NCBI GenBank assembly: GCA_030681645.1
Contig: JAUXRX010000005.1
Span: 124,001-188,000, forward strand
Direction: 5' to 3'
DNA from: Archangium sp.
Lineage (GTDB): Bacteria; Myxococcota; Myxococcia; Myxococcales; Myxococcaceae
Length of the DNA: 64,000 nucleotides
The position numbers and the translations under genes are program-made. Under the pieces are notes generated by a model. It was not told the origin of the DNA and did not search any database. It saw nothing but the letters and a program-made list of their open reading frames with translations. Positions 35,024 to 53,528 of this stretch are shown here, piece after piece; the first letter of the stretch is position 1; each line of letters starts with the position of its first letter.

Positions 35024-35193
35024 GGAGCCGCTCTGAAAGGCGCCCTGATGGGACGCGCTGCAGGGGGGATCTGCGCTGTGCTCGTGGCGGGCATGCCTCT
35101 CTACTCCGGGCAAGGACGCGAAGCTCAACCAGGCGGCTCCTCTTGGGGGCCTCCGGTTCGCTCTCGGCCGAAGCGGACAGGGCCAGCGCGCAC

Positions 35194-35261
35194 TTGTCTC
35201 CTTTGTTGACTGTGAGGCGGGGTCGGGAGGGGCCTCAAAAGCCTGTACTCTTTGATGACAA
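35194..35261 (+). repeat. Left arm of a 68-bp inverted repeat
   Basis: This arm and 35847-35914 are reverse complements over 68 bases with a single mismatch (A at 35245 against C in the other arm). The arm starts TTGTCTCC and ends GATGACAA, so each arm has short inverted ends of its own. The flanking bases differ on the two sides, and no target-site duplication is seen. Confidence 0.95.
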
Positions 35262-35286
35262 TTGACCGGCGCGACCTCCAACGGCC

Positions 35287-35790
35287 TCAGGAGAAGCGGG
35301 CACTCCAACTGGCGCTGACGGCCATGAGGTCCTGCAGGTCGGCTTTCTCGGCGAGCTTACGTGCCGTGGCCTTGCGGAGCGCCGTCAGAGAAGGCTGCTC
35401 CTTCGCCTCGGAGCGGGACGCGCGAAGCGCCTCCGCCTCCCGTGCGAACTCGAGGTTCGGATCCCGGCGGAGTTCGTCGGGGTGGTACAGGCCGGCGAGG
35501 TAACCCTCCATCGTGCGGTTGACGAGCGCGCGCAGCGTCGAGCGGAGTTCGACGAGGAGCGTGTTGACGTCCACGCGGCCGACGAGGTGCTCCTCCCAGA
35601 TGTGCATGCGCCGCTCGAGGCACTCGAGGCGCGCGATCCCCGACTTGCTGAGCCGCCAGGCTGCGACCCGTCCGCGTCGGGTGAAGGTGGCCGCCTCGAC
35701 CAGTCCCGCTTCTTCGAGCCGGACCAGGCTGCGATGGACCTGCTGGCGTCTACGGCCGACACCGACACGCTCTTCAGGCTCATTCCCGCT
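35287..35790 (-). pseudogene. Winged-helix regulator fragment inside the inverted repeat
   Basis: An open frame of 167 codons runs from just after a TGA at 35791 to a TGA at 35287, but its first 60 codons contain no ATG, GTG or TTG. The translated start reads EERVGVGRRRQQVHRSLVRL, then EEAGLVEAATFTRRGRVAAW, which resembles the recognition helix and wing of a MarR/PadR/ArsR-type winged helix. The remaining C-terminal part is helical. Removing one base near 35783 would fuse it to an upstream stub, MKRE, which begins at ATG 35796. So this is probably a frameshifted gene, or it has a rare start codon. The ATG at 35607 would give only the helical C-terminal 106 residues. Confidence 0.6.
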
Positions 35791-35846
35791 TCATCTCATG
35801 CGGGTCCGACAAGTCGGCGCGGGCGGCCCGCTGCTTGGCCGGATAT

Positions 35847-35914
35847 TTGTCATCAAAGAGGACAGGCTTTTGAGGCCCCTCCCGACCCCGCCTCACAGTC
35901 AACAAAGGAGACAA
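35847..35914 (-). repeat. Right arm of the 68-bp inverted repeat
   Basis: This is the inverted partner of 35194-35261. Together they bound a 585-bp interior. The outer side continues for about 150 bases without a gene up to the lipoprotein stop at 36066. Confidence 0.95.
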
Positions 35915-36065
35915 CGTCTCCGCTGGGCGGCTTCTTCGATGCGGGTGGCGTCTCACTGTGCCGAAGCCAGCAGCACTGGATTCACAAAGAGCCCGCGTCG
36001 CGGAGCCTGTCCGCGCTGGGCACCGAGTCGCCAGGTGACCAGCGCGTTCCCCGGTGCTGTTCGCT
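35915..36065. other. Gap between inverted repeat and lipoprotein gene
   Basis: No gene or repeat is recognised here. The minus-strand frame stays open through this stretch from the lipoprotein side, but it lacks a start and any motif. Confidence 0.4.
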
Positions 36066-37112
36066 TCAGGGACCGCCGTCAGGACCAGCGTCCGACGTGC
36101 CGCCGTCCGGGGTGCCGGCATCGGTTCCGCCATCAACCGGGAAGCCGCCATCTGACGTGCCGCCATCGGGAGTGCCAGCGTCCGTGACGCCGCCATCGGT
36201 GGGGAAGCCACCGTCAGACGTGCCGCCGTCAGCGGGGAAGCCGCCATCGAACACGCCGCCGTCCGTCGGGAAGCCCCCATCGAACACGCCGCCGTCCGTC
36301 GGGGAGCCGCCATCGAACACGCCGCCATCGGGGCGAACGCCACCGTCGACGCCACCATCGACGAACACCCCACCATCGACGCCCGCGTCCACCGAGAAGC
36401 CGCAGAGCCGATCGAGATCCGACGCCGCCGGACACACGAGCGAGCTGACGAAGCCGACCTGCACGCCGTTGCGCACGCATGCGCAGCCCAGCGGCGAGGT
36501 GCCCGAGCACTGGATCTCCAGCGTCTCCTGGCCACACACCCGCGAGCACTCGCAGTCGGCGCCGCCGTCATTCGGAGTCACGCACCGCTCGGTGCACGCC
36601 GTGCCGCCATCCGTCCCGCCGTCACCACCGCCGCGCGCCGAGTCGAGCGTGGGCACGAACACCGAGAAGTGCAGCGTGTCGGCCTCGACGTGCGTCGAGT
36701 CGACGATGCGCGTGGGCAGCGCCTCGAACGCCGCCGTCCCGATCGGCGCGCGCAGCACCACCACGTCGGCAATCGAGTAGCCCGCCGGGAGCCGCGCGAG
36801 GTCGACCTCCAGCTTCACCTTCGCCGGCACGTCGAAGGTGAGCCCCTCGGGCCCGAACTCGTACATCTCACCGACCGACGGAGTCGTCGGCCGCACCTGC
36901 TCGAGCGTCGCCGGCTGCAGGGTGATCAACGCTGCGCGCCGCAGCGCGCCTGCAGGAACGGTCACGCCGACCCCGTTGGGCGCAGCCACGGTGCCACCCT
37001 CGACGCCGAGCGACTTCGACGCGCTCTTCTGCGGATCTCCGGTGGGACCAGCGCAAGCCGCGAGCGTGAACAGCGCCGCGATGACCGAGAACCGAATCGA
37101 CTGTCGAACCAT
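36066..37112 (-). CDS. ZU5-like lipoprotein with Asp-Gly-Gly repeat tail
   Basis: A 348-residue lipoprotein. ATG 37112 has GAGGGGA about eight bases upstream and begins a signal peptide with lipobox LAAC. Residues 35-130 resemble a ZU5 domain (GGTVAAPNGVGVTVPAGAL, MYEFGPEGLTF). A Cys-rich segment follows (about 155-235). The last 110 residues are an imperfect repeat of units such as DGGVFDGGFPTDGG, a flexible low-complexity linker ending at the C-terminus. This mix is common in Myxococcota surface proteins of unknown role, and a spacer to the cell surface is one reading. The repeat tail makes this locus prone to length change. Confidence 0.82.
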   Translation of the reverse strand: MVRQSIRFSVIAALFTLAACAGPTGDPQKSASKSLGVEGGTVAAPNGVGVTVPAGALRRAALITLQPATLEQVRPTTPSVGEMYEFGPEGLTFDVPAKVKLEVDLARLPAGYSIADVVVLRAPIGTAAFEALPTRIVDSTHVEADTLHFSVFVPTLDSARGGGDGGTDGGTACTERCVTPNDGGADCECSRVCGQETLEIQCSGTSPLGCACVRNGVQVGFVSSLVCPAASDLDRLCGFSVDAGVDGGVFVDGGVDGGVRPDGGVFDGGSPTDGGVFDGGFPTDGGVFDGGFPADGGTSDGGFPTDGGVTDAGTPDGGTSDGGFPVDGGTDAGTPDGGTSDAGPDGGP

Positions 37113-44881: not shown

Positions 44882-45067
44882 GAAGTGGAGAGCCATAGTC
44901 AGAGTGGGGCGGCAAAGTGGCGCGGCCCGGCCTGCGCGCAGCGCCCAGCTTCGGGTCCTTGCCCGAAGCCGAGGGGCAAGCTCGCGAGGGCACCGAGCAA
45001 ACCCGTGAAGCCGTGCGGTCCCGGGGCCTGATCTCCGACCACTCTGACTACGGCTCCTCTCCACTTC
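44882..45067. repeat. Possible MITE-like element with inverted ends
   Basis: The ends 44882-44907 and 45039-45067 are imperfect inverted repeats, sharing GAAGTGGAGAG and TAGTCAGAGTGG in the same order with a 3-base insertion in the right arm. The 186-base unit contains a hairpin, CTTCGGG with CCCGAAG at about 44950-44967. That hairpin is part of a 29-base sequence repeated in reverse at 53413-53441. No coding potential is seen. It fills most of the gap between the TonB receptor stop and the lipoprotein start. Confidence 0.65.
44953..44981 (+). repeat. Dispersed repeat family 3, copy a
   Basis: The 29-base sequence begins GGGTCCTTGCCCGAAGC and ends GGGGCAAGC. The reverse complement recurs at 53413-53441 with one mismatch. 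It contains a stable hairpin with a short loop. Confidence 0.8.
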
Positions 45068-53357: not shown

Positions 53358-53412
53358 GGTGGCTGTGGTGGTGCGTGGGGCGAGCAGGATCTCGTTCGGT
53401 GCTCGTCGCGCT

Positions 53413-53441
53413 GCTTGCCCCTCAGCTTCGGGCAAGGACCC
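53413..53441 (-). repeat. Dispersed repeat family 3, copy b
   Basis: Reverse complement of 44953-44981 with one mismatch. It lies between the exported protein stop and the small lipoprotein, followed downstream by the perfect inverted repeat at 53493. Confidence 0.8.
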
Positions 53442-53492
53442 TCAGGTGACGCGGTCCAACGGCCAGCGCGCCGAGAGGGCGTCGTTACGTAG

Positions 53493-53528
53493 TCAATGAT
53501 GACGTTGCGAGCGGGACGTCATCATTGA
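53493..53528. other. Perfect 13-bp inverted repeat
   Basis: TCAATGATGACGT at 53493-53505 is repeated in inverse at 53516-53528 with a 10-base loop. It lies between convergent genes. There is no T-run on either side, so a simple intrinsic terminator is doubtful; an operator or an mRNA stability hairpin are alternatives. Its AT-content differs from the surroundings. Confidence 0.7.

Follow-up and report, generated by a model that had tools for sequence, protein, structure and literature searches.

A near-perfect inverted repeat in the genome of Archangium sp. is considered, with moderate confidence, to form the core of one copy of a dispersed and likely mobile repeat, whose copies have shared ends, operator-like box pairs and, in some cases, a gene for a MarR-type regulator predicted to bind the boxes of its own subfamily. 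The repeat lies in a stretch of 64,000 nucleotides analysed as a whole and called here the window, to which all coordinates without a contig name refer (Table 1). As far as can be judged from sequence comparison, the elements are best read as working like REPIN or MITE repeats with an added operator-regulator layer, and they are assigned to neither of these families.

The geometry given in a preliminary description of the site was confirmed: the two arms are alike over 68 bp with one mismatch (77 nt at 95% under laxer extension) and enclose an interior of 585 bp, which contains a winged-helix frame without a usable start. The repeat stands far above chance, the next-best inverted pair listed between 33 and 38 kb measuring 26 nt at 81%. 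Uniqueness of the arms in the genome had been named beforehand as a point against any movement or inversion; the 68-mer in fact has 30 matches in its own genome (10.24 Mb in 66 contigs, both window arms counted), several as close inverted pairs and others single. It was matched in three of the 60 genomes searched, namely its own and two of the same genus (G002 and G005).

Table 1. Coordinates of the element at the inverted repeat and of the other family members recognised in the window.
Feature	Position	Strand	Description
Outer module A	35037..35127	-	Common to most family elements; nhmmer profile of 53 copies, E 6e-18 (C35:159037-159127)
Whole element	35042..36070	.	GCCCTGATGGGACGCG at 35042 is the left end; the right end was set by eye close to the stop of the convergent gene
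Left arm	35194..35261	+	Boxes at 35196-35210 and 35245-35259, 49 bp apart
Broken MarR-type winged-helix gene	35287..35790	-	167-codon open frame; little of the N-terminal part left and no normal start
Leader block TTGTCGGACCCGCATGAGATG	35792..35812	-	Same sequence precedes the window gene and both G002 genes
Right arm	35847..35914	-	Boxes at 35849-35863 and 35898-35912
Outer module B, diverged	35952..36051	-	Local alignment score 32.5; none of 500 shuffles as high, best shuffle 22.5
Third family member	44946..45029	+	Only module A recognised
Second family member	53367..53528	.	Gene-less; module A with a box pair of the TCAATGATGA type; situated between two convergent genes

Each arm proved to be a two-box module. 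The 15-bp boxes GTCTCCTTTGWTGAC and GTCCTCTTTGWTGAC are present, within a base or two per copy, in all 28 aligned arms (two of the 30, being partial matches, were left out), and at least 27 of the 28 have the same base in 26 of the 30 box columns, as against 5 of the 34 spacer columns. The boxes, palindromic in part only (4 of 7 positions pair), are 49 bp apart in 21 arms, 48 bp in six and 50 bp in one. The TTGTC/GACAA ends reported earlier are real and correspond to the outer edges of these boxes, while the accompanying idea that each arm could itself be a small unit came close, the arm being a two-box module that also occurs singly. Moreover, the second G002 gene copy is flanked by changed boxes (TGTCGCCTTCGTTGAC) in arrays of four and two, with exactly 49 bp between successive boxes within each array.

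When nine arm pairs were compared arm by arm (one of them with both arms on the same strand), each arm was closer to an arm elsewhere than to its own partner in seven; the exceptions were the window pair (99%) and one pair on contig C6 (93%). Because most arms resemble arms elsewhere more than their partners, it is the boxes, and not arm-arm pairing, that are generally kept, and the near-perfect repeat in the window probably reflects recent homogenisation or duplication. A likeness of 99%, above that of most arm pairs, would also allow for recent exchange between the two arms, as in an invertible switch in which their recombination flips the interior. This option of the preliminary description is hardly credible, however, since the arms belong to a dispersed family, no recombinase frame was recognised in the 585-bp interior and the gene is broken whichever way round it lies.

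The arms and the regulator gene are framed by outer modules. About 60 related elements, with outer ends in common and a variable core, were located by similarity in the parts of the genome examined, a number that is no full census; seven of them lie on C35, a contig of 400 kb that was read whole. Module A has at least 43 matches in the genome, a lower bound obtained by scoring 40 of 184 candidates, and a 20-base piece of it has 73 matches at three mismatches or fewer, as against 34 for a reversed control. In the nine relatives for which two ends could be recognised, inverted terminal repeats of about 20 bp are found, such as GGCCTCGAGGTGCGCGGTGA and its inverse; the family ends are also written GGCCTCGAGG. 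The elements measure about 160-460 bp without the gene and about 1 kb with it, and their units are arranged as inverted doublets (A-/A+ and C+/C- pairs) placed intergenically. The box pair of the second, gene-less member in the window also flanks an intact regulator gene at C25:80-682. Four loci (L001, L004, L006, L010) gave no match in Rfam up to E 1. Two module A copies lying 1.5 kb apart on C6 (35.6-37.2 kb) had been considered one long element and were judged by eye to be two short elements around another gene.

Besides the window type, the cores fall into types with the box pairs TAATGGACCATTA, GTACACCGGGTGTAC, CAACCATGTTG-type and TCAATGATGA-type. From the offsets of box matches, the box centres were calculated to be 21 bp apart in all 12 TAATGG cores, in all four distinct GTACACC cores and in both CAACC cores matched, as well as in seven of eight cores of the sister genome G004 (box about GTGACAACCCTGTTGTCAC); in the TCAATGATGA type the distance is 26 bp and not 21 (2 of 2). 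The candidate sites are near-palindromic and 13-19 bp long in most subfamilies: the TAATGG and GTACACC boxes are perfectly palindromic, the TCAATGATGA type weakly so, and several cores, for example those of the TAATGG type, form long perfect palindromes. At least two elements, C36:170811-171047 (L137) and C10:72937-73418 (L059), hold two box types each by eye, as if cores had been combined. As a separate observation, the TAATGG elements at C26:211928-212210 (L113) and C15:159645-159808 (L119) are also alike in their right-hand flank, so that these loci look duplicated, or the assembly mixes two strains (its contamination is given as 6.66%).

The gene of the window has, by an estimate from alignment with its homologues, lost about 45 codons between its first codons and the recognition helix, and the start codon that remains is out of frame with the rest, the frame being shifted. 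Its nearest paralogue is 89% identical, and dN/dS between these two closest copies is 0.32 over 152 codons. Copies of the gene were found in six elements of this genome, representing five subfamilies, and in two of G002, and gene-less elements carry the same boxes as gene-bearing ones. The state of the copies varies: the one on C6 is interrupted by a stop, and in that at 524.7 kb of C58 the first codons and the right arm are gone. Full-length open frames for the regulator are present at C58:482464-482979, C25:80-682 and on contig C582 of G002. In G002, one copy is flanked by arms on either side and has an open frame of 211 aa.

Assignment to the MarR type is based on profile and fold comparisons. 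The Pfam family MarR_2 scored above its cut-off in two of the four members tested, with a weak or no match in the other two, and a structure model of moderate confidence (pLDDT 70, pTM 0.57) has MarR-type proteins as its top PDB fold matches, one of them at E below 0.001, which suggests a fold of this kind. The matches of four members in NCBIfam and PHROGs were weak and sub-threshold only. Searches of 5.77 billion protein sequences returned 12 clusters for a single query and 17 when a profile was used, the few names among them being MarR-type or winged-helix regulator of Archangium MAGs, or hypothetical protein. A scan of genome contigs returned the known G002 copy and a weak match in Nomurabacteria (28% identity over part of the query), and no winged-helix signature was seen in a pattern scan of the examined G004 loci and contig C108. 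Like members of the MarR family (Pfam MarR_2, PDB matches), the protein is predicted to have a winged-helix fold, and candidate sites are near-palindromic in most subfamilies; unlike them, it has an extra C-terminal part of its own. The window-type regulators share a conserved W..L(F/W) tail, a possible docking motif (alignments of P0001-P0016), and the TAATGG and CAACC regulators have a different tail with P.E.....W.

The recognition helix reads GR.RQQ(V/T)HRSL in regulators associated with window-type boxes, GR.RQNIQASL with TAATGG boxes, GR.RQSVQR(S/T)L with GTACACC and CAACC boxes, and GR.RQNVWRSL with TCAATGATGA boxes. These differences go with box type in about five independent cases, which is suggestive of recognition of each box by its own regulator. 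By eye, the boxes sit beyond the 3' end of the gene in the four other gene-bearing subfamilies of this genome; since they lie there, simple autoregulation is not indicated, and their position speaks against it and in favour of a function that concerns the element as a whole. Typical MarR operators differ from these candidate sites, which are spread genome-wide in repeats and are found past the gene in those four subfamilies. The leader block is identical in the three genes of Table 1 though their proteins agree at about half of their positions, and the remaining regulator genes are preceded by related blocks; a conserved block of this kind lies upstream of the regulator genes in the window and at L042, L043, L067, L068, L131 and L133. 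Translated, it would give a short peptide, (M/L)S-D-P-H-(E/G)-M, with variants; both in the window and at L042, the stop of this leader frame overlaps the start codon of the gene (ATGA), as in translational coupling.

The placement of the elements among genes is far from even. Among the 55 elements flanked on either side by a called gene (the other 5 of the 60 were left out for want of one), 28 lie between convergent genes, 20 between tandem and only seven between divergent ones; on C35, 56 of 321 adjacent gene pairs and 15 of 127 gaps over 100 bp are convergent, so that convergent placement is enriched against both (P 6e-7 and P 6e-8, respectively) and divergent placement differs from that of the wide gaps at P 0.009, values that come from an own codon-usage gene caller, a one-contig background and neighbours some of which are more than 1 kb away. 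Such a distribution would be expected of regulator-controlled roadblocks or terminators kept by the host between convergent genes, like phage stoperators. This explanation is nevertheless improbable: harmful insertions upstream of genes would give the same placement, REPs are placed likewise according to the available text of PMC3733652, and the content of the sites varies between sister species. The gene next to the element in the window (36066-36380) encodes a DGG-rich tail by imperfect repeats of about 15-33 bp, and the tail of its G004 orthologue is similar.

Comparison of orthologous sites bears on mobility. Four of the seven C35 elements sit in stretches that align on both sides to contig C108 of G004. 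One of them is absent in G004, where about 5 bp separate the aligned blocks as against about 270 bp here, leaving an empty orthologous site; two others face shorter, unrelated G004 spacers without a module A match. At the window site, two sister species have different cores: the G004 element (L152, G004:C108:12653-12927) has A-type ends on both sides of another core, which may reflect an exchange of cores or another insertion at this position. In G005, the element and the next gene are both absent from this site. At least 28 matches were obtained in G004 (from the best 40 of 62 candidates scored, some being the two strands of one place), and one of these shares its place with a G000 element in the part of G000 that was compared. 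By eye, the elements of G005 keep arms, gene scraps and most of the leader block, and because gene scraps are kept, gene-less forms can arise by internal deletion. The dispersed copies, the shared ends and the empty site for one relative support the small non-autonomous mobile element that had been among the options first put forward.

Target duplications and a moving enzyme were looked for, the latter in one transposase family. A match of at least 3 bp of the kind expected for a target duplication was found in one of nine two-ended elements, with 1.4 expected by shuffling. The only family searched, Y1_Tnp, has one gene in the genome (C48:229-552), and module A gave no significant match in the 2052 bp around it, of which 228 bp lie upstream (best E 7); and none of the 60 located elements was recognised as an autonomous transposon bearing these ends. 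A third early option, the relic of an insertion sequence that has lost its transposase, would account for the outer inverted ends of the two-ended relatives; with target duplication not found, no module A within 2 kb of the sole Y1 gene, and every gene copy seen, six here and two in G002, encoding the same kind of winged-helix MarR-type protein, it is very improbable.

In the available text of PMC3733652 and PMC3116915, REPs are described as small scattered extragenic inverted doublets of 20-40 bp that lie for the most part downstream of genes, with convergent or unidirectional neighbours, and the CGTC-tagged REPs as having no known transposase. Like REPs, BIMEs and REPINs, the elements described here are scattered extragenic inverted doublets at the 3' ends of genes and, like the CGTC-tagged REPs of these sources, they have no linked transposase that was found. 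Unlike REPs, they are longer, have several kinds of box-pair core and carry a MarR-type gene in some copies; unlike REPINs, they have no linked RAYT, as judged from one Y1 gene and the 2 kb around it. Module A has, by eye, CGTC before a GCG...CTTGCC/GGCAAG hairpin, which departs from the described CGTC families in loop, stem and tail and shows weak covariation of the stem. As for MITEs, of which a general bacterial definition is found in the accessible part of PMC3116915 and the enterobacterial RU repeats in that of PMC2759123, the likeness lies in short length, terminal inverted repeats and gene-less forms that are apparently deletion derivatives of longer ones, and the difference in that no autonomous transposon or target duplication was found here and the long form encodes a regulator and not a transposase.

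These likenesses raise the possibility that the elements are ordinary REPIN- or MITE-like palindromic repeats acting as DNA or RNA hairpins, with boxes kept by a host factor or by the moving enzyme and the MarR-type gene as a passenger. Inverted doublets, 3'-end placement and the lack of a linked transposase would suit it, being REP-like features in the available text of the two sources cited above, as would the long perfect palindromes of the TAATGG and several other cores. It is however rather unlikely, since partners are less like each other than like arms elsewhere in seven of the nine arm pairs, so that boxes and not long pairing are kept; furthermore, five subfamilies of this genome have the gene, matched to box type, with the dN/dS given above in one pair. 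Module A alone was also rejected as a strongly supported hairpin, RNAalifold keeping a weak consensus stem of five pairs (-1.6) over its 53 copies.

For the favoured reading, that of a dispersed mobile repeat with its own operators and regulator, a mechanism can be outlined. An enzyme acting in trans would move the elements by their shared ends; the box pair would be bound by dimers of the regulator lying on one face of the DNA; and this binding would limit movement, block read-through between neighbouring genes, or both. Divergence of boxes and regulator would give the subfamilies independent control, and the window copy, its working regulator lost, would persist as an operator-only element. 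Gene and boxes could also share a history without any binding.

A broader proposal, offered tentatively and as a possible rather than a probable one, is that these mobile repeats have split into immunity-like groups, each with its own operator pair and sometimes its own MarR-type repressor, in which box and helix would diverge together, the mobile ends would remain shared and cores would be swapped at occupied sites, the window site having different cores in two sister species. The available text on mycobacteriophage stoperators and immunity groups (PMC9283540, PMC6550527) offers a parallel, with many sites per repressor and with repressor and site diverging together. The likeness is an analogy only: the proteins are other ones, the repeats are chromosomal and not phage, and the case presented here is known from sequence. 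A literature search, with most subscription journals outside its reach, found, among the titles and abstracts listed, none on regulator-bearing repeats of such a kind in myxobacteria.

The usual view of small palindromic repeats is that of passive, non-coding DNA moved by an enzyme encoded elsewhere. Here, some copies have a regulator gene together with its apparent binding sites, and a single genome contains several box types. Should binding be confirmed, the repeats would police their own copies or profit from them, and regulons would be made by the spread of operators; their diversification would resemble that of phage immunity groups, in units small enough to be rebuilt in a laboratory strain.
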